Shown here one piece after another: positions 2,971-58,446 of a stretch of DNA of 64,000 nucleotides. Source of the DNA: Candidatus Methylomirabilota bacterium (GTDB lineage Bacteria; Methylomirabilota; Methylomirabilia; Methylomirabilales; Methylomirabilaceae). A program made the translations under genes and the position numbers. The notes beneath the pieces were generated by a model. That model had not been told where the DNA came from and searched no databases. It was given only the letters and a program-made list of their open reading frames with translations. The stretch lies in the NCBI GenBank assembly GCA_003104975.1, contig PQAM01000008.1, forward strand, positions 434,001-498,000, written 5' to 3'. Position 1 is the first letter of the stretch; each line of letters opens with the position of its first letter.

Positions 2971-3059
2971 AGACACATGAAAGGGTTGTGCGATCAATCT
3001 CTATTCTTGGAGAGTATCCCTGCACACGGAAGAGGGCGAGGGTAGGAGGGACTTTTTCC

Positions 3060-3089
3060 TTGACGATTCCCCTAGATAGCCCATATACT
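3060..3089 (+). promoter_or_regulatory. Promoter of the truncated wzm copy
   Basis: TTGACG (3060-3065), 18 bases, TATACT (3084-3089). The intact copy has the same boxes and the same 18-base spacing at 5157-5186, although the spacer differs. It would now read into the methyltransferase gene at 3510. Confidence 0.6.
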
Positions 3090-3097
3090 ACGTTTAC

Positions 3098-3506
3098 TTT
3101 TCGCGAGGGCCGGGGAGGGCAGGTCCTCGCGGAGTGGGAGGTTGCATGCGTTGCAGTGTTGGGCTGTACCGTCACCGGACCCTCATCTGGAGCTTCGTCA
3201 AAAGGGATCTGCTGGCCCGCTATAAAGGCTCTGCCGTCGGGTTGTTCTGGTCGATCATCCATCCCCTCATCATGCTGGGGCTGTACACCATCGTCTTTTC
3301 CGCCATCCTGAAGGTCCGCGTCGGCGCCGGAGAGGGGACGGACTATTTCGCCCTCTACCTGTTCTGCGGGTTACTCCCCTGGAATGCCTTTGCCGAGGGG
3401 CTGAATCGCTCGACCGGCGTCATCCTGGAGCATGCCAACCTGATCAAGCGGGTCATCTTTCCGTCGGAGATTCTGCCGGTCTATCCGGTGATCGCCGGCA
3501 TCGTCA
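3098..3506 (+). repeat. Direct repeat of the wzm 5' region, copy A (409 bp)
   Basis: By eye, identical to 5195-5603 (constant offset of 2097). It includes the leader hairpin (arms CGCGAGG 3102-3108 and CCTCGCG 3125-3131), the ribosome site GGGAGG and about 120 codons of the permease. Homology stops sharply at 3506, three bases before the methyltransferase ATG. Confidence 0.9.
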
Positions 3507-3526
3507 GGGATGCCTCGCATGCTTAA
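3146..3526 (+). pseudogene. Truncated ABC-2 permease (wzm fragment)
   Basis: The first 120 residues are the same as in the intact permease at 5243 (MRCSVGLYRHRTLIWSFVKR and on), including the first membrane segment and the loop YFALYLFCGLLPWNAF. After GIV the frame runs into unrelated sequence (RDASHA) and stops, so about half of the six-helix channel is missing. The tail overlaps the methyltransferase start by 17 nt. A functional transporter half is unlikely; translation may instead couple to the methyltransferase gene. Confidence 0.85.
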
Positions 3527-4619
3527 TCACCTTCGGCCCTTGCTGACACAAACTGTTTCGCCGCGAGTACCTGATTTTCAAGCACGGCCTGATGCGCAAC
3601 AGTTGCTACAGGAGTGCGTCGCTTTGGCTGCCTCGGACGCTACGTTTGCCAAGAATCTCCTCGAGACTCTGATTGGTTCATTGTCCTTTAAGAGCTCTAG
3701 CGAAATAGAACTGCTGGCCAATGTGCTCGGAGACGAACTGCTCGTTAAAGCGGTCCGGGCTCGATCATCCGTTAATGACTCGCTAATTTACGCCCACCAC
3801 GTTTTTGCGGAAATCGACTTTCTGGCACGCAAGCATCTCGCGCAACCCCTCCGCTCGGTGCTCGAGATTGGACCTGGTATTAATCTTGGGGCGCTTTTTT
3901 GTTTTGTTGCCTCCGGGGTCGAGCGGGCAGTCGGCGTAGATGTCGTCGAGATTACAGATTTAAGCCCTCATTTTTATAAGAGCTTGAAAGACTACCTGGG
4001 GTGTGTAGAAGGATTTGCGTGGTGGCGTTACTTTGCCACGAAAACCTATCCCCATGCCTCGTTCCCACACTGTGCCGAGACATTAAACGCTGACGAGGTC
4101 TTGCGGCGGATCGACTACCGAAGTCCGGTTTCGTCGGGGCAGCTACCCTTCGAAGATGATTCTTTTGACCTCATTTACTCGGTTGCGACTCTCGAGCATG
4201 TGCCTGAACCAGAGCGGACGGTTGGTGAGACAAAAAGGGTCCTGCGACCCGGAGGAATCAGCGTCCACGAGATCGATCTGCAGGACCATGGTACTTATGG
4301 TACTTGTGGTCCTCTGAGGTTTCTGGAATGGTCAGATGATGAGTATAGCACCAGGGCTCAGCCGTATGGTGAGGGGGCGTCTCTCAGAGGATTTCTCGAC
4401 GGCACCTGGCAGGGTGAGGTCTTTTGCAATCGATTTAGGATGTCTAATTGGCTGGATCTTTTCCGTCGCTATGGTTTCGAGGTCGTCGAATTAGAGCCCC
4501 TGATCGTGCTCGATCCTTCTGGTGTTTCGCGGGAACGGTTTGCGGAACCGTTCCGGTTCAAATCGGTAGAGGATCTTGCGGTTCTTGCGTTTCACATCGT
4601 AGTACGGTGTCGTAAGTAA
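3510..4619 (+). CDS. Class I SAM-dependent methyltransferase
   Basis: 369 residues. SAM-binding motif I is VLEIGPGINLG (about 117-127), and the post-motif segment PFEDDSFDLIYSVATLEHV (about 213-231) followed by KRVLRPGG is the usual Methyltransf_11 pattern. About 110 helical N-terminal residues precede the domain. An ATG three codons in (3519) is an alternative start. The gene is visibly AT-richer than its neighbours and sits exactly between the two copies of the wzm 5' region, which suggests late insertion. Likely role: methylating a sugar of the surface polysaccharide, perhaps capping it before Wzm/Wzt export (inference). Confidence 0.8.
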   Translation: MPRMLNHLRPLLTQTVSPRVPDFQARPDAQQLLQECVALAASDATFAKNLLETLIGSLSFKSSSEIELLANVLGDELLVKAVRARSSVNDSLIYAHHVFAEIDFLARKHLAQPLRSVLEIGPGINLGALFCFVASGVERAVGVDVVEITDLSPHFYKSLKDYLGCVEGFAWWRYFATKTYPHASFPHCAETLNADEVLRRIDYRSPVSSGQLPFEDDSFDLIYSVATLEHVPEPERTVGETKRVLRPGGISVHEIDLQDHGTYGTCGPLRFLEWSDDEYSTRAQPYGEGASLRGFLDGTWQGEVFCNRFRMSNWLDLFRRYGFEVVELEPLIVLDPSGVSRERFAEPFRFKSVEDLAVLAFHIVVRCRK

Positions 4620-4632
4620 CAGATGATGTTTT

Positions 4633-4777
4633 AGCAGGTTGTTGAAAAACTCGGTCTACCATCATTTCGGACGAGGTGAAGCGATTTCGTCTCCTTAAAA
4701 AACAATAAGTTATAGATTGCTTCGTCGCAAACATCGCTCCTCGCAATGACATATACGGACTTTTTCAACAACCTGCT
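4633..4777. mobile_element. MITE-like element with 17-bp terminal inverted repeats (145 bp)
   Basis: The left end AGCAGGTTGTTGAAAAA and right end TTTTTCAACAACCTGCT are exact inverted repeats of 17 bp. TA stands at both borders, so the target site was probably TA. The inside holds a piece resembling the GCAATGAC repeat but no gene. It directly abuts MITE copy 2, and the two share the TA at 4777-4778. Confidence 0.78.
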
Positions 4778-4950
4778 AGCGTCCTGAGTTAAAAGTTCGA
4801 TGAAGAAGTCGGCGCTCCATGTGTCGTCATTCCCGCGAAAGCGGGAATCCAAAACTCCCGGTATTTCCTGGATTCCGGCTCGCGCCCGCGATGCGGGCTT
4901 GGCCGGAATGACGTCCACAAATATGCAACGAATTTCGGAAATGGGACACT
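4778..4950. mobile_element. MITE-like element, copy 2 (173 bp)
   Basis: Same length as copy 1 and in reverse orientation. Ends AGCGTCC (4778-4784) and GGACACT (4944-4950), with TA on both sides (4777-4778 and 4950-4951). The inner segment ATTCCCGCGAAAGCGGGAAT and the GCGGGCTTGGCCGGAATGAC arm match copy 1. Noncoding. Confidence 0.8.
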
Positions 4951-5156
4951 AGTGACCTCGGTAAGATACTCGACGCTCGAAAGAACATCGCGAGCTTCAC
5001 ATGTTGGCTTAGACTTGTAAGGCCCTTGTCGTCGAACGAGAAGGCAGGCGGTTTCGGACTGCCGGTCTTCAGGTTCCCGCGCACTACCCCACCTCAGCCA
5101 GCCGTGGTCACGCGATTGGAACGTGTGCTATCTACCCATCTTCCCGAGCTTTTTCC
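4951..5156. other. Intergenic remnant before wzm
   Basis: No supportable gene. A short minus-strand frame crosses into the MITE and has no start signal or family likeness; it could be a relic of an older gene. Confidence 0.3.
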
Positions 5157-5186
5157 TTGACGATACTGTCGGATTCCTCCTATACT
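5157..5186 (+). promoter_or_regulatory. Promoter of the wzm-wzt polysaccharide operon
   Basis: TTGACG (5157-5162), 18 bases, TATACT (5181-5186). The leader then forms a hairpin (arms CGCGAGG 5199-5205 and CCTCGCG 5222-5228) ending some 15 bases before the ATG and just ahead of the GGGAGG ribosome site, where it might influence translation start. Confidence 0.65.
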
Positions 5187-5194
5187 AGACGTAA

Positions 5195-5603
5195 TTTTCG
5201 CGAGGGCCGGGGAGGGCAGGTCCTCGCGGAGTGGGAGGTTGCATGCGTTGCAGTGTTGGGCTGTACCGTCACCGGACCCTCATCTGGAGCTTCGTCAAAA
5301 GGGATCTGCTGGCCCGCTATAAAGGCTCTGCCGTCGGGTTGTTCTGGTCGATCATCCATCCCCTCATCATGCTGGGGCTGTACACCATCGTCTTTTCCGC
5401 CATCCTGAAGGTCCGCGTCGGCGCCGGAGAGGGGACGGACTATTTCGCCCTCTACCTGTTCTGCGGGTTACTCCCCTGGAATGCCTTTGCCGAGGGGCTG
5501 AATCGCTCGACCGGCGTCATCCTGGAGCATGCCAACCTGATCAAGCGGGTCATCTTTCCGTCGGAGATTCTGCCGGTCTATCCGGTGATCGCCGGCATCG
5601 TCA
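5195..5603 (+). repeat. Direct repeat of the wzm 5' region, copy B (409 bp)
   Basis: Matches 3098-3506 base for base as read. This copy continues into a full permease gene and is therefore the parent or the maintained copy. Confidence 0.9.
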
Positions 5604-6034
5604 ATGAGCTGATCGGCTTCGGCGTCCTCCTGGGCGTCTTGCTGGTCATCGGGCATCCCATTCGGCCGGTCATCCTGGTCCTGCCCGCGATCCTGGTGCT
5701 GCAGTTCGCATTGACGACCGGACTGGCATGGCTTATCGCCGGGACGACCGTTTTTGTACGGGATCTCGGTCAGATTCTTGGAGTCATCCTGACGCTGTGG
5801 CTGTTCCTCACGCCGATCTTTTATCCGCCCGCGATGGTTCCCCAGGGGATGCAGGTCCTGTTGACCATCAATCCGATGTATACCGTCGTAGAGGCCTACC
5901 GGAGCCTGATCCTTCGGGGTGAGATTCCGACCTGGTGGAGCCTCGCTGCGCTGACGCTGATGGCCCTCATCGTGAACTGGCTGGGCTATCGGGTATTCGC
6001 GCGTATGCGGCCTGCCTTTGCCGACGTACTGTGA
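5243..6034 (+). CDS. wzm: Polysaccharide ABC exporter, permease subunit (Wzm)
   Basis: 263-residue ABC-2-type membrane protein, the normal length for Wzm/TagG/RfbA permeases. The N-terminus (RTLIWSFVKRDLLARYKGSA) is the conserved amphipathic start; about six hydrophobic segments follow, and the family motif LTPIFYPPAMVP lies near residue 195. The ATG at 5243 is preferred over a GTG four codons earlier because GGGAGG precedes it. It pairs with the ATPase encoded next, overlapping by 1 nt (TGATG), to flip lipid-linked polysaccharide across the inner membrane. Confidence 0.9.
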   Translation: MRCSVGLYRHRTLIWSFVKRDLLARYKGSAVGLFWSIIHPLIMLGLYTIVFSAILKVRVGAGEGTDYFALYLFCGLLPWNAFAEGLNRSTGVILEHANLIKRVIFPSEILPVYPVIAGIVNELIGFGVLLGVLLVIGHPIRPVILVLPAILVLQFALTTGLAWLIAGTTVFVRDLGQILGVILTLWLFLTPIFYPPAMVPQGMQVLLTINPMYTVVEAYRSLILRGEIPTWWSLAALTLMALIVNWLGYRVFARMRPAFADVL

Positions 6035-7275
6035 TGGTGACGGTTGAGGCCCGGCAACTGTCCAAGGTCTATCGGATCTACACCCATCCGCAGGATCGGC
6101 TCAAAGAATTCCTGTTTCGTGGCCGTCGGACCTATCACAAGCAATTCTGGGCCCTTCGCGACGTCAGCTTTCAGGTCAAGAGGGGTACGACGCTCGGCAT
6201 CATCGGAGATAACGGCGCCGGCAAGAGCACATTGCTGCAACTGGTCGCCGGCACCCTGCAACCCAGCGCCGGGACGGCGCGTATTGAAGGGTGCGTCTCC
6301 GCGATCCTGGAGCTTGGCGCCGGGTTCAACCCCGAGTTTACGGGGCGGGAAAACGCGTTGATGAGCGGGGCGATCATGGGGATCCCGTCACGGGAGATGG
6401 AGCGAAAGCTGCCTGAGGTGGCGGCATTTGCGGACATCGGCGACTTCTTGGATCAACCCGTCAAGATCTATTCCAGCGGCATGTATATCAGGTTGGCGTT
6501 TGCAGTCGCCACCGCTATCGATCCGGATGTGTTAATCATTGATGAGGCGCTGTCGGTCGGGGACGTATATTTCCAGAAACGGTGCTTCGACCGCATCGAC
6601 AGTTTCAGGAAAACAGGGAAGACGATTCTATTCTGTTCCCACGACCTGTATTATGTTCGGATGATTTGTGATGAGCTGATCTGGTTGAGAAATGGTCAAA
6701 TTCATGAGATGGGGGAGGCGTCCCGAGTGGCTGGGGCGTATGAGAATTACCTTCGGGAGCGGGAACTGCCGTCGGCCAAACCGCCTGTGGGTGCCGATCA
6801 TGTGACGCCGTTTCCCTGGATCGATCGGATTCACGTAGCCAAGGCTGAGGACTCAGGGGAGCGCGACATCTTCATGACCGGTGATGACATTGTCGTGACG
6901 GTCTCTTTCCGCGTCCCTCAATCGCCGACTCCGGTTCACATCGGGGTTGTTCTGACTCGTAACGACGGCACGGAGTGTTTTGGGACCGGAACTCACATTG
7001 TCGCCATGGAGGCGGCTACTGAAAGCGGACACGCTCACCTCCATCTGCCGCGCTTGCCGCTGCTGTCTGGGGAGTACGCGCTGAGTGCGTTTCTCTTGGA
7101 CGGAAACGGATTGCACGTTTATGATCGACGGCTGCGCGAGGTGAGATTCAGGGTTGCCCAAAAAGCCAAGATGATAGGACTCTGTTACCTGGACCATCGG
7201 TGGGAGGTCGAGCCTCTCGGAGAAGGTGTGAAGCCATTGCCTCGTCAGGGAGCGGGTGTGGAGGCCGCCGGGTGA
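6034..7275 (+). CDS. wzt: Polysaccharide ABC exporter, ATPase with C-terminal substrate domain (Wzt)
   Basis: 413 residues. Walker A GDNGAGKST (58-66), signature SSGMY (147-151), Walker B VLIIDE (166-171) and the switch histidine in FCSHDL near 202 form a complete ATPase. About 165 further residues (250-413) form the beta-rich Wzt C-terminal domain, which in E. coli O9a reads the capped end of the glycan. Starting at 6034 removes an unrelated 33-residue extension. Presence of this domain suggests that export here waits for a terminal modification; both methyltransferases in the locus are candidates (inference). Confidence 0.92.
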   Translation: MVTVEARQLSKVYRIYTHPQDRLKEFLFRGRRTYHKQFWALRDVSFQVKRGTTLGIIGDNGAGKSTLLQLVAGTLQPSAGTARIEGCVSAILELGAGFNPEFTGRENALMSGAIMGIPSREMERKLPEVAAFADIGDFLDQPVKIYSSGMYIRLAFAVATAIDPDVLIIDEALSVGDVYFQKRCFDRIDSFRKTGKTILFCSHDLYYVRMICDELIWLRNGQIHEMGEASRVAGAYENYLRERELPSAKPPVGADHVTPFPWIDRIHVAKAEDSGERDIFMTGDDIVVTVSFRVPQSPTPVHIGVVLTRNDGTECFGTGTHIVAMEAATESGHAHLHLPRLPLLSGEYALSAFLLDGNGLHVYDRRLREVRFRVAQKAKMIGLCYLDHRWEVEPLGEGVKPLPRQGAGVEAAG

Positions 7276-15879: not shown

Positions 15880-17292
15880 GTGTGCAGTGTGGCGAGAGCG
15901 GGTCTGGCAGTGGCCCCCCCAAAGGTCTCCGTAGGCATCCCTACCTACAATGGCGAGCGGTTTATTGCCGAGTCGATCCGAAGCGTCTTGGATCAGACCA
16001 TCCAGGACCTCGAACTGATCGTGGTCGACGATCGGTCTACCGATACGACCGTCGAGATCGTTCGCTCCCTGTGCGATCCTCGCATTGTCCTCTACGAGAA
16101 TGAGGTGCGCCTGGGCATTCCAGGGAACTGGAATCGCACCGTCTCCCTGGCCCGCGGTGAGTACCTGTGTCTCTTCCACCAAGACGACCGGATGCAGCCG
16201 GACAACCTGGCGCGGAAACTCGACGTTCTTCGGGCTGATCCCACCATCGGGATCGTGCATTCGGCAGTGGAGATCCTCATTGAGCCGTCGGCGCCGTATC
16301 CGCCATCCCGGTGGGTGGAGGCGTCCGAGGTCGATTTCACGATTGATGGCGGCGCGTACCTTCGACGTCTGCTGTTTGAGGGAAACCTCATCTGTGCGCC
16401 GAGTGTCCTTGTGAGACGGGAGGAGCTCGTCAAGGCCGGTGGATTTGACCCGGATCTCGGGTTTGCGTGTGACTATGCCCTGTGGATGAAGCTCTGTTTC
16501 AACCGACGAGTCGCCTTCCTCAGCCAACCCTTGGTCCAGTACCGGTGGCATGCAGACAATGAGACGCACCGCTACCGGTTCGACAGGGGCGTCCGGGAGA
16601 TAGCCCTCGCCGGCCGGAAGGTGTTGGCAGAGTACCGCCAACACCCGGGCAGAGCACAGGAGGCAGAGTGGTTGCATGCCTCGGTAGAGGCCTTGGCGAA
16701 GGTGCACAGGTGGGCAGCGGAGCTTGAGACATCCAAGGCGTGGCTGGAGGAGCAGGTACGGAACTGGCAGCAGGAGGCCGAGCAGCGCGAGAGGGCGCTT
16801 ACAGAACTTCGGACATGGACGGTCCAGCTTGAGACATCCAAGGCGTGGCTGGAGGAGCAGGTACGGAACTGGCAGCAGGAGGCGGAGCAGCGCGAGAGGA
16901 CGCTTACAGAACTTCGGACATGGACGGCCCAGCTTGAGGCCGCCAAGGCGTGGCTGGAGGAGCAAGTGCGGAACTGGCAGCAGGAGGCGGAGCAGCGCGA
17001 GGCGCTGGTTGCGGACCTCCGGGCGAAGGGAGCGGAGCGTGAGGCCGCCACGGTACGGCTGGAGGAGCAGGTACGGAACTGGCAGCGGGAGGCGGAGCAG
17101 CGCGAGGCGCTGGTCCTGGAGCATCGTCGAGCCCTTGAGTCCCTACACACCCGCATTGCTGTGCTGGAGCACGAGCGGGCGAAGGTGGGTCGGACGTTGG
17201 ATGACCTGGAAGAGCAGGCCTGGACGCGGATCGGCCGGCGTCTGCGCCTGCTGAGCGGCCGGCAGGCGATGGAGACCAACACACACGAATGA
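15880..17292 (+). CDS. GT2-family glycosyltransferase with four 35-residue coiled-coil repeats
   Basis: 470 residues from GTG; GTGs a few codons later are alternative starts. Residues 15-260 are a GT-A enzyme (PKVSVGIPTYNGERFIAES, VVDDRSTDTTVE, donor loop HQDDRMQPDN). Residues 282-421 are four tandem 35-residue repeats with the core AWLEEQVRNWQQEAEQRE: exactly five heptads each, a long continuous coiled coil. The C-terminus (WTRIGRRLRLLSG) matches tails of other coil-bearing transferases. The coil could act as a ruler or scaffold, as in WbdD (inference). Confidence 0.87.
   Translation: MCSVARAGLAVAPPKVSVGIPTYNGERFIAESIRSVLDQTIQDLELIVVDDRSTDTTVEIVRSLCDPRIVLYENEVRLGIPGNWNRTVSLARGEYLCLFHQDDRMQPDNLARKLDVLRADPTIGIVHSAVEILIEPSAPYPPSRWVEASEVDFTIDGGAYLRRLLFEGNLICAPSVLVRREELVKAGGFDPDLGFACDYALWMKLCFNRRVAFLSQPLVQYRWHADNETHRYRFDRGVREIALAGRKVLAEYRQHPGRAQEAEWLHASVEALAKVHRWAAELETSKAWLEEQVRNWQQEAEQRERALTELRTWTVQLETSKAWLEEQVRNWQQEAEQRERTLTELRTWTAQLEAAKAWLEEQVRNWQQEAEQREALVADLRAKGAEREAATVRLEEQVRNWQREAEQREALVLEHRRALESLHTRIAVLEHERAKVGRTLDDLEEQAWTRIGRRLRLLSGRQAMETNTHE
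16723..17142 (+). repeat. Four tandem 105-bp coding repeats
   Basis: Units start at 16723, 16828, 16933 and 17038. The first two are almost identical; the third and fourth diverge in their second halves. Each encodes 35 residues (five heptads). Copy number could vary by slippage, changing coil length by fixed steps. Confidence 0.88.
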
Positions 17293-21437: not shown

Positions 21438-23170
21438 TGGCGGAGCGCGCAGCGTCCCGATCGCTCGGGGGATATGGCGGGGCTGTGGCGGCTTGCCTTG
21501 CGGTCGTTGCCGTTGCCAATCTGTTTACAGTCTACTATGTGACCCAGGAACGCACGATCTACTTCTGGGACTGGTCCCATTATTGGCTTCGGTATCGCGA
21601 CCTTACCGCATCGCTCGCGCAGCATCCCACCGCTACCCTTGGCTCTCTGCTCAGCTCCGTTCGGCGAGACGACTACAATCTGCTGCCGGTACTGCCGCTG
21701 GTTCCGGTGGGATGGTTGTTCGGAACCGGGCGCCTGCCGTACATATTGGCCATTACCAATATCTATCTGCTGCCGGCTATACTCGTCATGGGTCTGCTGC
21801 TACAGTGGCTGTTTCGCCCAGGCATCCCCCGGCGATCCTTTGCGCCTTTCGTGTTGACCGTCGCAAGTCTCCCCCTACTCCATATGCTATGGGTGGCCGC
21901 ACTGCGGGGGTTCCCCGATGTGGTGGGAGTCGTACCCATAGGAGGCATCTTGCTGCTCCATTTCGCCAGGCCGCTCAGCGAACAGCGTGCGGGTAGGCTG
22001 GTAGCGACCGGATTACTCCTTTGCCTTCTGGTTCTACTCAGGCGCTGGTACGCGTATTGGGTCGTGGCGTTCTTTCCGGCGCTCGCCGTCGCCCACGGCC
22101 TTGACATCTATCGGCGGTACGGCAGCGACTGGCGCCCTTATCTGACTGCCGGCCGCAATGCGGTTATTATCGGACTGACGTTTGCCTCGGCCCTGTTGGG
22201 ACTCGCTACGCCGTTTGCATTGAGGGCCATACAAACGGACTATTCCGACATCTATTCGGCCTACCGGTTCAACCATTCCCTGATGGATGATGTGAGCCAT
22301 CTGGCTCGTTGGTTCGGTTGGGTTGAAATTGTTGCCGGTTCGGTCGGACTTGCCTGGCTGGCCGTTCGTAAAGAAACGCGGGTGTTGGGCAGCTTCCTGC
22401 TCGTACAGCTCTGCACGATCTTTGCGCTGTTCACGCGGACCCAAGACTTCAGCCTGCAACACATCTACCTGTTGATTCCGGGTCTCGCCGTAGGCATTGC
22501 GGCAGTGGTCATCGGTCTGTGGGGGCGGATGATGAATGGCGTGTGGCGGGTCGCTTCCGTCGGGCTGATGCTCACCGTACTGTTACTCGGCTCCGTCACT
22601 GCCTTTACTCCGGGGGCTGTCGCTATCGCGGACCGTCTTCGCGTTCTCCTGCCATCAGACCGTTTCTACCCACTGGTCAGGCATGACATTGATATGCTGG
22701 AAAACCTGCTGGCGAGCGTGGAGACGTTGGAGCTGGCGCAACCCGGCGACATCTATGTGTTGGCCAGCTCCAATATTCTGAATTCCAATATCTTATACAA
22801 CGCCTGCAAGTTTGGTCCGCGCCCCCGATCCTTCTGCGATCGCATCCTCAGTGCAAGCGATGTCGATAAGCGCGACGGGTTTCCTCGTCAGTTCCTGCAG
22901 GCCACGTACCTGGTTACTGCCAGTCCCGCGCAATACCATTTGCGTCCCGATGATCAGCGTGTGATCGGTGTCCTGCTGCGGGAAGTCGTCGGGGGACACG
23001 GCATCGGCGCATCCTTCCAGCGCCTGCCGGGTGAGTTTACGCTCGACAACCGAGTGACTGTTCGAGTCTACTTGAAAGAGTCCCCGTTTAAACGATCCGA
23101 TCTTGACGCACTCGAAAAGGAGTTCAATGGCTATTATCCCGGAAGAGGGCACCTCTTCTCGGTACCGTAG
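21434..23170 (+). CDS. Polytopic membrane protein, possible GT-C-type transferase (copy 1)
   Basis: 578 residues; ATG overlaps the preceding stop (ATGA). About ten hydrophobic segments occupy residues 10-410, followed by a soluble C-terminal domain with VLASSNILNSNILYNACK. After the first helix comes an acidic, aromatic loop (YFWDWSHYWLRYRDL), the place where GT-C enzymes keep their catalytic acid. A close paralogue is at 24572. Possibly adds a sugar from a polyprenyl-phosphate donor in the periplasm; the polyprenyl-phosphate GT2 at 26315 would supply it (inference). Confidence 0.65.
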   Translation: MMAERAASRSLGGYGGAVAACLAVVAVANLFTVYYVTQERTIYFWDWSHYWLRYRDLTASLAQHPTATLGSLLSSVRRDDYNLLPVLPLVPVGWLFGTGRLPYILAITNIYLLPAILVMGLLLQWLFRPGIPRRSFAPFVLTVASLPLLHMLWVAALRGFPDVVGVVPIGGILLLHFARPLSEQRAGRLVATGLLLCLLVLLRRWYAYWVVAFFPALAVAHGLDIYRRYGSDWRPYLTAGRNAVIIGLTFASALLGLATPFALRAIQTDYSDIYSAYRFNHSLMDDVSHLARWFGWVEIVAGSVGLAWLAVRKETRVLGSFLLVQLCTIFALFTRTQDFSLQHIYLLIPGLAVGIAAVVIGLWGRMMNGVWRVASVGLMLTVLLLGSVTAFTPGAVAIADRLRVLLPSDRFYPLVRHDIDMLENLLASVETLELAQPGDIYVLASSNILNSNILYNACKFGPRPRSFCDRILSASDVDKRDGFPRQFLQATYLVTASPAQYHLRPDDQRVIGVLLREVVGGHGIGASFQRLPGEFTLDNRVTVRVYLKESPFKRSDLDALEKEFNGYYPGRGHLFSVP

Positions 23171-23182
23171 TACTTAATTTCG

Positions 23183-23270
23183 AAAGTTAGCGCACATAAG
23201 CCGTCATACCCGCGAAAGCGGGTATCCAGTAACATCAGTGGATTCCCGCTTAAAGACTGCGGGAATACCG
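23183..23270. repeat. Dispersed repeat with ACCCGCGAAAGCGGGT hairpin
   Basis: Contains GTCATACCCGCGAAAGCGGG and, 25 bases on, GATTCCCGCTTAAAGACTGC. A reverse-oriented copy at 51824-51920 shares both parts and the flanking GTTAGCG. Noncoding. Confidence 0.65.
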
Positions 23271-23414
23271 CATGCATCGCTGGTGCGCCCATGGACATGA
23301 AAGTCGACGCATTACGGCCCCCTCACCTCAATCCTCTCCCCCAAATGGAGGGAGAGGAGGTCTTTTTTCGTGCCGCTCGCCTCCTTGGAGGAGAGGGCGG
23401 GGGTGAGGAGGGAC
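23271..23414. repeat. Dispersed palindromic repeat, CCCCCTCACC type
   Basis: Starts with a CATGC...GGTGCGCCCATGGA segment, then CCCCCTCACCT, a CCTCTCCCCCAAATGGAGGG palindrome and GGGGGTGAGG. A related copy is translated inside tlyA at 62650-62798. It fills the gap before the second methyltransferase. Confidence 0.65.
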
Positions 23415-23458
23415 TTTCTGGGCAATGACGTACGGGTATTATTACAAGCAAGTAGTAG

Positions 23459-24559
23459 ATGAGCAAACTGAAGTTGGAGACTGCAAAAATGTATTTTTTT
23501 AAAAAGACGGGGAAAAGAAGAATTGACGGCGCCATTACATTCTGTGAGGCCCAACGCGACCCAAGCTCGCCGACGCCGTTCCTCGAAATCAGGGGTTTTG
23601 TAGATTCCGACACGGATATCAAACACCTCATCTGTTCCATCAATGGGTCGGCAGCGAGGACCTTTCAGACGCCGTATGACCGACAACGGATCACCGGAGA
23701 AGCGACGAGACAGCCGGGCAGGGGGTTCTTGACCTTCGTCAGGATTCCGCCGGCTCTCGGGGATGAGATCAGCATCTCCATAGAGGCAGAAGACGACGCG
23801 GGTCATACAGTACCGATCGCCCGGCTCGACACCTCATCAGCGCATTGTAGAGTCATAGAGGAGGAGGGTTTCTCATCTGAATTGACATTTTGGAAAGAGG
23901 CGATCACCGCAAGGAAACATCTCGAACCTGCGCTTTCCGTGGCCAGATCGAAGGAGCAGTATCAATACTATTATCCTGAATTTTTGCTCAACTTCGTCCA
24001 CCGCGAAAGCCCGGTGCTGTTTCCAGGAGAAGCTCTGTTGGCGCTCGACGTCGGCTCCGGCCCCTTTTCCCAGCTTATTGGGGGTCAGGTTCAAGGGTTA
24101 TTTCAGATTACAGCAATCGACCCCCTCGCACGTGAGTATGTTGCCTTGATGGAGACAGACGGACTCTTCAGGGAATTTCCCGTCAAGCCTATCTACGGCA
24201 CCGGAGAGACGCTCATGAACCTTTTCGGGGAGGAATCTTTTCATATCGCCTACATAGGCAATGCCCTGGATCACACACAAGATCCGTCCCTGACGATAGA
24301 CAATATCTACAGGGTTCTTAAGAAAAATGGGATCTTCATGGTGATTTTCTATGAGAATGAAGGCACCACAGAGTGGTGGCGTGGTCTACACCAGTACGAC
24401 TTATCGCTGGATGGATCGTATATCCGATGTACCAATAAGTTTGGAGACTCCTGCCTGATCACGGATCCGCACATCTGGACACACATCTATTCGAAAGACT
24501 TGGACTATGAGAGCAATGCAGGAAGGCGGTTATTGGGAGTTGCCTTCAGAAAAGACTGA
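23459..24559 (+). CDS. SAM-dependent methyltransferase with beta-rich N-terminal region
   Basis: 366 residues. Residues about 20-125 look beta-rich, with LTFVRIPPALGDEISISIEA recalling carbohydrate-binding sandwiches. From about 190 comes a class I methyltransferase: LLALDVGSGPFSQLIGG (motif I), ITAIDPLAREYV (acidic end of strand 2) and HIAYIGNALDHTQDP. Visibly AT-richer than its neighbours, and it sits between two paralogous membrane proteins. An ATG ten codons in is an alternative start. It may methylate the glycan made by this locus; partner and position are unknown. Confidence 0.78.
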   Translation: MSKLKLETAKMYFFKKTGKRRIDGAITFCEAQRDPSSPTPFLEIRGFVDSDTDIKHLICSINGSAARTFQTPYDRQRITGEATRQPGRGFLTFVRIPPALGDEISISIEAEDDAGHTVPIARLDTSSAHCRVIEEEGFSSELTFWKEAITARKHLEPALSVARSKEQYQYYYPEFLLNFVHRESPVLFPGEALLALDVGSGPFSQLIGGQVQGLFQITAIDPLAREYVALMETDGLFREFPVKPIYGTGETLMNLFGEESFHIAYIGNALDHTQDPSLTIDNIYRVLKKNGIFMVIFYENEGTTEWWRGLHQYDLSLDGSYIRCTNKFGDSCLITDPHIWTHIYSKDLDYESNAGRRLLGVAFRKD

Positions 24560-24571
24560 GACAACCCTCTC

Positions 24572-26314
24572 ATGACACCACAACTCTCAATTGACCGGCC
24601 GTTCAGAAGATATGGCGGGGTTGTGGCCGCGTGCCTTGCCTTGGCCGTCCTGGCTAATGCGTTTGCGGTCTATTATGTGGTTCAAGAACGCTACATCTAT
24701 TATTGGGACTGGTCCCATTATTGGGATCGGTACCGGGATCTTGCCGGGTCACTCACGCAGCATCCCATCGCGACGCTTGGTTCCCTGATCGGTTCCATTC
24801 GGAAGGACGACCATAATTCGTTGCCGGTGCTGCCGCTGGTCCCGGTGGGATGGCTGTTCGGAACCGGCCGCCTGCCGTACATATTGGCCATTACCAATAT
24901 CTATCTGGTGCCGGCTGTCTTGGTTATGGGGCTGCTGGTGCAGCGGCTGTTTCGTCCGTACTTTCCCCGGCGGCCTTTCGTGCCGTTCGTGTTGACCGTC
25001 GCGAGTCTCCCGCTGCTCCATATGCTGTGGGCTGCCGCACTGCAAGGATACCCCGACGTGGTGGGGATCGTCCTCATAGGAGGCATATCGCTGCTGCACT
25101 TCGCCGTACCGCTCTCGGAACAGGGCTTGGGTAGACTGGTGGCGACCGGACTACTTCTTTGCCTTCTCGTTCTGCTCAGGCGCTGGTATGCGTTTTGGGT
25201 GGTGGCCTTCTTTCCGGCGATTACCGTTGCTCACGGTCTTGATATCTATCAGCGGCACGGCATCGCCTGGCGCCCTTATCTGACTGCCGGCCGCAACGCG
25301 GTCATCATTGGGCTTGTTTTCACCCTGACCCTGTTTTGGCTCGCCGCTCCGTTTGCGTTGAGGGCCATGCGAACGGACTATTCCGACATCTATTCGGCCT
25401 GGCGGTATAATAACTCCCTGGTCGAGGTCGCGAAAGATGTGGCCCGTAAATTCGGGTGGTTTGAACTGATCACCGGTCTGGTCGGGCTTGTCTGGCTCAT
25501 CGTCCGTCAGGAAACCCGGGTGATAGGCAGCTTCCTGCTCGTGCAATTGTTCGCGATTTTCGTGCTGTTCGCGCGAACCCAGGTCTTTGGAGTTCAACAT
25601 GTGTACCTGCTGATTCCGGGTCTCGCCGTAGGCATTGCGGCAGTCGTTATCGGCCTCTGGAGGGAGATGACGAACGGCTTGTGGCGAGTCGCTTCGGTCG
25701 GGTGTGTGCTGGCTGCCCTATCGATAAGCTCCTTCGCGACCTTTGTTCCGGGAGTTGCGGGTATTGCTGAGCATCTTGGCAGCTTCGTCCCAGCCCCGTC
25801 AACGCGACTGTACCCACTGGTCAGGTACGACATTGATGTGCTGGAAAACCTGCTGGCGCGTGTAGAGACGTTGGAGCTGCAGCAACCGGGCGATATCTAT
25901 GTATTGGCCAGCTCCCATATTCTGAATTCAAATATCTTGCAGAACGCCTGTAGGCTTGGCCCACACCCTCGATCTTTTTGTGACCGTATCCTGTACACGC
26001 ACGATGTCGACAAGCGCGACGGGTTTCCCCGCCGGTTCCTGCAAGCGACATACCTCGTGGCCGCCAGTCCCACGCAATACAGTGTGCGTCCCGATGACCA
26101 GCGCGTCGTCGGCGTCCTGGCGCGGGAAGTCACCGAGGGCCACGGCATCGGCGCCTCGTTTCAGCGCCTGCCCGGTAGGTTCACGCTCGACAACGGGGTC
26201 ACCGTATGGATCTATATGAGGGTTCGACCGTTCGAACGAACCGACCTCGACGCACTCGAAGATGAGTTCAACGGCTATTATCCCGGAAGAGGGCACCTCT
26301 TCTCGGTGCCGTAG
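24572..26314 (+). CDS. Polytopic membrane protein, possible GT-C-type transferase (copy 2)
   Basis: 580 residues, a close paralogue of the protein at 21434 along the whole length; for example both contain VPVGWLFGTGRLPYILAITN and end in EFNGYYPGRGHLFSVP, with nearly identical DNA at the 3' end. Same plan: N-terminal helix, acidic loop (YYWDWSHYWDRYRDL), many membrane segments, C-terminal soluble part. The tandem copies probably arose by duplication, with the methyltransferase gene and repeats now between them. Divergence in loops could mean different acceptors. Confidence 0.66.
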   Translation: MTPQLSIDRPFRRYGGVVAACLALAVLANAFAVYYVVQERYIYYWDWSHYWDRYRDLAGSLTQHPIATLGSLIGSIRKDDHNSLPVLPLVPVGWLFGTGRLPYILAITNIYLVPAVLVMGLLVQRLFRPYFPRRPFVPFVLTVASLPLLHMLWAAALQGYPDVVGIVLIGGISLLHFAVPLSEQGLGRLVATGLLLCLLVLLRRWYAFWVVAFFPAITVAHGLDIYQRHGIAWRPYLTAGRNAVIIGLVFTLTLFWLAAPFALRAMRTDYSDIYSAWRYNNSLVEVAKDVARKFGWFELITGLVGLVWLIVRQETRVIGSFLLVQLFAIFVLFARTQVFGVQHVYLLIPGLAVGIAAVVIGLWREMTNGLWRVASVGCVLAALSISSFATFVPGVAGIAEHLGSFVPAPSTRLYPLVRYDIDVLENLLARVETLELQQPGDIYVLASSHILNSNILQNACRLGPHPRSFCDRILYTHDVDKRDGFPRRFLQATYLVAASPTQYSVRPDDQRVVGVLAREVTEGHGIGASFQRLPGRFTLDNGVTVWIYMRVRPFERTDLDALEDEFNGYYPGRGHLFSVP

Positions 26315-56022: not shown

Positions 56023-58446
56023 ATGCGTCGCCCGCTTGTGCCGCCGGCCGTCGCGTTTCTCCTGGGTATCGTGGCTGCGCGCCTCGTGCAGCTTCCGGTG
56101 ATCGTCTGGTTTCTCGCCGGCCTGGCTGCGGCAGGTGTTACCCTGCTGGGCGCCGTCTCTCAGCGACGTTATACGGCCGTCGCATCGCTTGTGCTCCTGT
56201 TCTTGTCCCTCGGCGCCGGCCGCCTCGGAGTCGAGCCCTACCTCCTTCCCCCGCATCATATTGATCGTTTGCCTGAAGAGGTTCTGGAACGGCCGCTGCT
56301 GATCGAAGGGGTGGTGGCCTCGTCAAACGATGCGGCGGCCGTCGCAACCGGAGGCCTCGAGGACGAAGGCAGGCGGACTCGGTTTCTGCTCGACCTGCGA
56401 ACCGTATGGCTGGAGGGGCGACCGATTGAGGTTGTGGGGCGGGCGCGTGTCACCCTTCTTGGCGCCGAGGTCGAGTCTGCCTATGGTGAACGGATTCGCG
56501 GGCCGTTCAAGCTTCGCCGCCCGCGCGGCTACCTCAATCCGGGCGGGTTCGACCATCCGCTCTACCTGACAAGCCGGGGCGTAACCCTTGAAGGGTGGGC
56601 GGGCGATGCCGCACCCATCGAACGCCGCGGAACAGACGAGGGGAGCGGGCCGCTGACCCTCGCCTATGCGCTCCGCACCCGGCTGATTGATGCGGTGAAG
56701 GGGCTGTTGCCACCCGAGCAGGCATCCTTACTGATCGCCATGACACTCGGCGAACGATCCGGCATTCCGAAACAGATCCACGAGGCGTTTGTAGGGTCCG
56801 GCACGTATCATATCCTGGCCATTTCCGGCCTGAATGTCAGCCTGCTCGCCGCCGTGCTGTTTGTGCTGTTGAAGGCTGTCCGTATTCCGCTGCGCCTGAG
56901 TGCGTTGCTGTCGATGGGGCTCATCACCTTTTATGCGGTCCTCGCCGGCGGGAGCGCGTCGGTAGTCAGGGCGGCGGTTATGGCCGATGTGTACCTCCTG
57001 GCACTGGTCCTTGATCGTGAGGCCGATTCGCTCAATACCCTCGCACTCTCAGCCCTCGGACTCCTGCTCTGGCAGCCGCTGTATCTGTTCGACGTCGGAT
57101 TTCAACTGACCTTCGTTGCCACCGGGGCAATCCTGGTGGCGGTCGACCGGCTACCGTCGGCTTCGCTGCCGGTACCGTCGCGATGGATTGCGACATCCGT
57201 ATGGCTGTCCATTGCCGCGTTCCTCGGAACCGCCCCGATCCTCGCCTCGACCTTCCATCGACTCTCACCGATCGGGATCGTGGCGAATCTCCCGATTGTG
57301 CCCTTGAGCGGCCTGTTGACGGGGGTCGGGATGCTGTTTGCCGTCTCGGCTACCGTCATTCCCCATGCTCTCGGATGGTTTGCGGCACTCACGGGATGGC
57401 TGATTGATCTGCTGGTGTACCTTGCCCAATGGTTCGCTCGACTGCCGTTTGCGTCGGTTCAGGTGTTTCCTCCATCTATCCCAATGACCATCTGTTACTA
57501 CGTGACCTTGGGAGCGCTCATCGCGGCGGAGGAACGCCGTTGGCTTCGATGGACCGCGTGCGCGGCCGCCCTGGCCTGTGTCATCCTGGTTGCTGTTCGC
57601 CTGCTGCCTATCTTTCAGAGCGGCCAATTGCGGATGACTGTGCTCGACGTCGGACAAGGTGACGGCATTGTTCTGGAGCTCCCCGGACGGCGAACCATCC
57701 TGATCGACGGTGGCGGTCTGTTCGATGATCGGTTTGATATCGGGGAGCAGGTGGTCGTGCCGTTCCTGCGTTCACGCTGGATCGGCCACCTGGATGTCGT
57801 GGTGCTGTCGCATCCGCATCCGGATCACCTGAACGGCCTGCAGGGTGTCCTCCGTCGGTTCACGGTCGGCCAGGTCTGGGACAGCGGCCAGCGGACTGCC
57901 ATACCGACCTATCTGTGGTTCGAAGAGGTGCTGCGCGATAAGCGGATTCCCCACAAGATCCTGCACGATGGGTATCGGACCTCCGAGTTTGCGCCGGTGC
58001 AGATCGCGGTCCTGCACCCGCCGTATCCGATGGTCGACGGTTCTCCCCGCGGCCGTTTCTCCGATGTCAACAGCAACTCGCTGGTCCTGGCGGTGAAATA
58101 CGGTACCGTGACGTTCTTATTGCCCGGTGACATCGAACAGGAGGCGGAACGGCTGCTGGTTCAACGGGAAGCGGATCTGGAGGCGCAGGTGCTGAAGGTG
58201 CCGCACCATGGCGGCAGAACCAGCAGTAGCGAGCCGTTTCTCGCCCGGGTCCATCCGAAGGTTGCAGTCGTCTCCGCCGGCTACCGGAACCGCTTCCGGC
58301 ATCCGCATCAAGAGACGTTAGACCGGTACCGTACGAGCGGCACTCGTCTGTACAGGACCGATCTCGACGGTGCCATCACCGTGACCACTGACGGAAACAC
58401 GATCGATGTAACGACCTTTCGACAGGCTACGGTACGTCAAGACTGA
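56023..58446 (+). CDS. comEC: DNA uptake channel ComEC/Rec2
   Basis: 807 residues, full three-part architecture: N-terminal DUF4131/OB-like part (1-205), competence channel with many helices (about 220-535; ILAISGLNVSLLAAVLF and GGSASVVRAAVMADVYLLAL) and a C-terminal metallo-beta-lactamase domain (about 550-790) with HPHPDHLNG at 597-605. Brings single-stranded DNA across the inner membrane. Its 3' end overlaps the converging mazF-like gene by 20 nt. No other competence gene is in the window. Confidence 0.94.
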   Translation: MRRPLVPPAVAFLLGIVAARLVQLPVIVWFLAGLAAAGVTLLGAVSQRRYTAVASLVLLFLSLGAGRLGVEPYLLPPHHIDRLPEEVLERPLLIEGVVASSNDAAAVATGGLEDEGRRTRFLLDLRTVWLEGRPIEVVGRARVTLLGAEVESAYGERIRGPFKLRRPRGYLNPGGFDHPLYLTSRGVTLEGWAGDAAPIERRGTDEGSGPLTLAYALRTRLIDAVKGLLPPEQASLLIAMTLGERSGIPKQIHEAFVGSGTYHILAISGLNVSLLAAVLFVLLKAVRIPLRLSALLSMGLITFYAVLAGGSASVVRAAVMADVYLLALVLDREADSLNTLALSALGLLLWQPLYLFDVGFQLTFVATGAILVAVDRLPSASLPVPSRWIATSVWLSIAAFLGTAPILASTFHRLSPIGIVANLPIVPLSGLLTGVGMLFAVSATVIPHALGWFAALTGWLIDLLVYLAQWFARLPFASVQVFPPSIPMTICYYVTLGALIAAEERRWLRWTACAAALACVILVAVRLLPIFQSGQLRMTVLDVGQGDGIVLELPGRRTILIDGGGLFDDRFDIGEQVVVPFLRSRWIGHLDVVVLSHPHPDHLNGLQGVLRRFTVGQVWDSGQRTAIPTYLWFEEVLRDKRIPHKILHDGYRTSEFAPVQIAVLHPPYPMVDGSPRGRFSDVNSNSLVLAVKYGTVTFLLPGDIEQEAERLLVQREADLEAQVLKVPHHGGRTSSSEPFLARVHPKVAVVSAGYRNRFRHPHQETLDRYRTSGTRLYRTDLDGAITVTTDGNTIDVTTFRQATVRQD

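Follow-up and report, generated by a model that had tools for sequence, protein, structure and literature searches.

Within the 64-kb stretch of DNA analysed here, which we call the window, an exporter locus carries the beginning of one gene twice, with a second gene lying in between. The intact copy is wzm (5243-6034), which encodes an ABC-2 polysaccharide exporter permease of 263 aa (Pfam ABC2_membrane, 1.5e-19). It is followed by wzt (6037-7275), whose product is the ATPase of the exporter (Pfam ABC_tran, 6.4e-21) and carries a terminal Wzt_C domain (2.5e-13), and a glycan gene cluster lies downstream of the pair. Upstream of the intact wzm we found a truncated wzm of 126 aa (3146-3526), in which 120 native residues are followed by RDASHA and then a stop, and overlapping its end is a gene for a class I SAM-dependent methyltransferase of 366 aa (3519-4619; Pfam Methyltransf_11, 6.8e-13). 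These genes are all on the forward strand, as are two predicted promoters, A (3052-3097) and B (5149-5194), each directly followed by one copy of a repeated block, copy A (3098-3506) and copy B (5195-5603). Between the methyltransferase gene and promoter B lie a MITE-like palindromic element with visible terminal inverted repeats, TAGCAGGTTGTTGAAAAA (4632-4778), a second MITE-like element of about 175 bp with 44 matches in the genome and a presence in 11 of 14 congeners (4778-4952), and a unique stretch of 196 bp with no match elsewhere in the genus (4953-5148).

The surroundings contain several other features. Two PIN-domain toxin/antitoxin pairs, with MazE-like and FitA-like antitoxins, are located just upstream of promoter A (193-865 and 2097-2779). 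The MITE-like element at 4778-4952 is present again at 1834-2008, inverted and 95% identical, and the two flank promoter A, copy A and the methyltransferase gene; recombination between them could invert this 2.8-kb segment. Farther along, a glycosyltransferase gene (15880-17292) contains four head-to-tail, in-frame repeats of 105 bp (16721-17140), each encoding 35 aa of heptad-like coiled-coil sequence, with repeats 1 and 2 being 97% identical, and an altered repeat number could change a chain-length ruler. Two gene regions of about 1.7 kb, lying about 3.1 kb apart and 79-82% identical, represent an older tandem gene duplication (21457-26301), and a ComEC-type competence protein domain is encoded at 56740-57537.

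The repeated block comprises the leader and 5' end of wzm in copy A and the leader and beginning of the intact wzm in copy B. When the two copies were aligned, 409 of 409 bases were identical at an offset of 2097, with a mismatch at both outer neighbouring bases, which bears out the first-pass annotation in describing base-identical copies with unlike flanks. The absence of any difference over 409 bp places a 95% upper bound of 0.7% on the divergence between the copies. No exact repeat in the window is longer than this pair, the others of at least 40 bases measuring 58-63 bases against a chance expectation of about 16, and no third copy of the block exists in the 3.0-Mb assembly. Its content is the wzm leader, 120 wzm codons and the first base of codon 121. 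An earlier description of it as the promoter-proximal region of wzm is correct for the leader and these codons, but the promoter hexamers themselves lie outside: the 5' edge of the block falls about 8 bases past the -10 element, near the predicted transcription start. We ruled out a mobile element (a composite transposon, IS or MITE), the block being wzm sequence with just two copies in the genome. An RNA-templated origin was also considered and set aside; its sole basis is the position of the block start near the predicted transcription start.

The methyltransferase gene has two candidate starts, ATG 3510 (369 aa) and ATG 3519 (366 aa). The former agrees with the first-pass placement of the gene three bases past the end of copy A, but the latter, which has AGGG upstream at 3506-3509 and overlaps the truncated wzm stop at 3524-3526, is also possible. 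This overlap of stop and start would favour translational coupling of the methyltransferase to the truncated wzm, and its transcript would begin at promoter A and include the wzm leader. The gene was correctly noted to be richer in AT: its GC content is 0.526 and its GC3 0.54, versus GC3 values of 0.68-0.80 in neighbouring genes, a composition that looks foreign. Across the phylum's 94 other genomes, no homologue was found at 1e-20, in agreement with the suggestion that the gene was newly acquired, while searches of other sequence collections returned motif-level matches only and no plasmid match.

A more specific claim, that the gene encodes a capping enzyme, found no support: the protein could be assigned to the class I SAM methyltransferases in general, without a match to any specific family. 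Known chain terminators possess a coiled-coil ruler, and those of the methylphosphate type also a kinase (PMC11231755). In the protein considered here, no kinase family was found in Pfam or NCBIfam, no heptad repeats were evident by eye in its 366 aa, and searches for a WbdD or terminator-family match gave generic motif matches only (PDB, NCBIfam). A single-sequence structure model had a pLDDT of 40, too poor for use. Judged from its position alone, a role for the enzyme in glycan methylation is plausible.

Each repeat copy has its own predicted sigma-70 promoter upstream, of the form TTGACG-18-TATACT, with hexamers spanning 3060-3089 and 5157-5186. Promoter A consists of CTTTTTCC, the -35 element TTGACG (at 3060), an 18-bp spacer, the -10 element TATACT (ending at 3089) and an 8-bp discriminator; promoter B likewise has CTTTTTCC, TTGACG (at 5157), an 18-bp spacer and TATACT (ending at 5186). 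Matches to this promoter motif occur at these two sites only, and we ruled out that it is widespread in the genome. In the 46 bp to the left of the repeats, 31 positions are identical and 15 differ, with the matches falling chiefly in CTTTTTCC and the -35 and -10 elements. Outside the hexamers 19 of 34 positions match, a level reached by only 6 of 20000 random pairs, and therefore we regard the two promoters as homologous. Over 64 positions, promoter A is identical to promoter B at 38 and to the wzm promoter of the congener G007 at 38, and promoter B is identical to that of G007 at 36, while third-position identity between the wzm genes of the two genomes is 0.60. (The congener G008 was left out of the third-position and random-pair comparisons because its ungapped alignment was out of register.) On this small sample, A and B seem to have been diverging for about as long as this genome and G007 have. 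Going by their sequences, the two promoters are long-separated, diverged alleles of the wzm promoter. The earlier statement that the wzm promoter and leader were duplicated is accordingly half right: the leader was copied and a wzm-type promoter does stand ahead of the methyltransferase gene, but the promoters are not copies of each other.

Inside the repeat, the leader contains a hairpin, GCGAGG...CCTCGC (3100-3133, forward strand, with its second copy at 5197-5230), that lies near the predicted wzm transcription start and folds at -22.9 to -23.5 kcal/mol (z -2.0). G007 has a similar hairpin and the congener G014 a weak one, and an Rfam search at the leader gave no credible family. The geometry of promoters A and B, with the 18-bp spacer and 13 bases from the -10 element to the leader hairpin, recurs ahead of wzm in G007, G014 and G008, which have the leader in common with this locus as well. 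Comparison with related genomes, proposed as a check in the first-pass annotation, showed an uninterrupted locus: each of ten congeners has a single intact wzm match (60-76% aa identity), and none of the ten has a truncated wzm copy matching this one. A search of 14 congeners for a donor locus, that is, the region upstream of promoter B, did not find one.

Because the repeats are identical and the promoters diverged, no single local duplication yields both, and one of the two promoters probably arrived with the insert. Target DNA is directly repeated on either side of the insert, with one partial and one complete wzm, as expected from the insertion by duplication of the wzm start that had been suggested for this locus. 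We favour, with about even confidence, integration by one-sided single-crossover homologous recombination of a fragment carrying the methyltransferase gene, mobile-element debris, promoter B and the wzm start. The recipient locus would have consisted of promoter A, wzm and wzt, and the incoming fragment of the methyltransferase gene, the debris, the diverged promoter allele B and wzm as far as codon 120. The ends of the fragment would have been joined, presumably in a circular intermediate, so that wzm codon 121 abutted the sequence immediately preceding the methyltransferase gene, and one Campbell-type homologous crossover in the shared wzm start would then give the present order of promoter A, 5' wzm, methyltransferase, debris, promoter B, intact wzm and wzt. 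After integration, the methyltransferase would be expressed from promoter A with the leader hairpin, and the exporter from promoter B. The event is probably an insertion-duplication, a known kind of event, and apparently a recent one. The genome encodes DprA and ComEC, so that DNA uptake may be possible. There is a precedent from E. coli, where part of the target gene was duplicated in 56 of 60 unusual integrants (109-950 bp in the sequenced cases), an outcome attributed to single-crossover integration of DNA that had been trimmed and re-circularised (PMC3240628).

A plain single crossover preserves every donor-recipient difference as a mismatch between the repeats. Here there are no differences in the 409-bp block and 15 in the adjoining 46-bp flank, which implies a donor whose wzm start is identical but whose promoter has been switched, or later gene conversion, or an inter-chromatid event. 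Switched promoters, through horizontal regulatory transfer, are a known kind of variation (PMC5890482). In an alternative history, the wzm start was duplicated around the methyltransferase gene long ago, the promoters drifted, and RecA-mediated conversion made the 409 bp uniform in recent times. Conversion between neighbouring direct repeats occurs readily, and the divergence of the promoters looks as old as the species. However, conversion tends to erode both edges, and the right edge of the block is identical to its last base and sharp at the new junction, which favours a recent event over a product of long-term conversion. So old a split should also have left a truncated copy or the methyltransferase gene in some congeners, and both are absent there; we regard this history as rather unlikely. 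An inter-chromatid event would be a one-sided illegitimate integration across sister chromatids, in which the right end of a linear donor crossed over in the leader and the other underwent an illegitimate joining with the repeat end on the sister chromatid. Both copies would then be recipient DNA, with only promoter B being foreign, and identity at all 409 positions would follow without further assumption. Integration between chromatids is documented to give tandem duplications in pneumococcal transformation (PMC3784515), but the crossover would have to fall within roughly 10-40 bp of leader homology, and the classical form of homology-facilitated illegitimate recombination removes recipient DNA and produces no duplication (PMC3240628). 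We think it improbable that the locus arose across chromatids, and we rejected the classical form, for which a recipient deletion is expected where a duplication of 409 bp is found.

Two other explanations concern the assembly and a simpler duplication. Two strains in a metagenome could have been joined through a common stretch of 409 bp, which is longer than common short reads; the assembly has 19 contigs, the sample was possibly mixed, and the two diverged promoters could be alleles of two strains. Nevertheless, the junction between the repeat and the methyltransferase gene must exist in some molecule, and there is no gap there. Both copies also lie within one 559-kb contig, in a genome estimated to be 99.99% complete and 0.42% contaminated, and an artefact is in our estimation quite unlikely. 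The other possibility, that a resident silent gene and the wzm start underwent a simple tandem duplication, would be promoter capture of the type described by Li and Bock (TDAH), and it too would leave a gene of horizontal origin under a captured promoter (PMC11111574). A fresh tandem duplication should leave identical promoters, but A and B are diverged, and it should leave a methyltransferase copy or remnant upstream of promoter A, where none is present. We consider promoter capture of this type very improbable.

RecA-mediated deletion across the 409-bp perfect repeat is a mechanistically sound prediction and would drop the insert, leaving promoter A and an intact wzm, while unequal crossover would amplify the methyltransferase gene as readily as delete it. 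It is highly doubtful, in our judgement, that the repeats are kept as a one-step RecA switch, by which the methyltransferase gene would be deleted or amplified in some cells with the exporter always intact, so that surface glycans in the population would be methylated on some cells and unmethylated on others. The locus offers a natural, apparently recent snapshot of a glycan cluster gaining an enzyme gene with its exporter unbroken and a promoter and leader ready-made. The combination of identical repeats and diverged promoters suggests the import of another promoter allele over a local duplication. Provided that reads confirm it, the locus would be a small case for measuring the loss or amplification of a new gene in a slow-growing uncultured bacterium.

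The arrangement can be compared with several known systems. Like the WbdD-type methyltransferase terminators of ABC-exported O antigens, the methyltransferase is encoded next to wzm and to a wzt whose product has a Wzt_C domain; unlike WbdD, it has no kinase family match, evident coiled-coil ruler or WbdD sequence match. With homology-facilitated illegitimate recombination in pneumococcus, Acinetobacter and P. stutzeri, the locus shares one-sided homology, an arbitrary other junction and the capture of foreign DNA, but that process normally deletes recipient sequence, whereas 409 bp were duplicated here. As in the work of Li and Bock (2019), so far as it is described in PMC11111574, a foreign gene was made expressible behind a duplicated native promoter, though in our case the promoters are not identical and the insert itself is not tandem. 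The single-crossover integrants of E. coli pJA2/lacZ (PMC3240628) likewise carry an insert on both sides of which a portion of the target gene is directly repeated, over 109-950 bp there and 409 bp here; those integrants were engineered and observed in a single experiment, whereas at this locus the promoters on either side are diverged alleles and no carrier was found. Finally, horizontal regulatory transfer (PMC5890482) similarly places strongly diverged upstream regions ahead of the same gene, but in the present case both versions reside in one genome, each before a copy of the wzm start.
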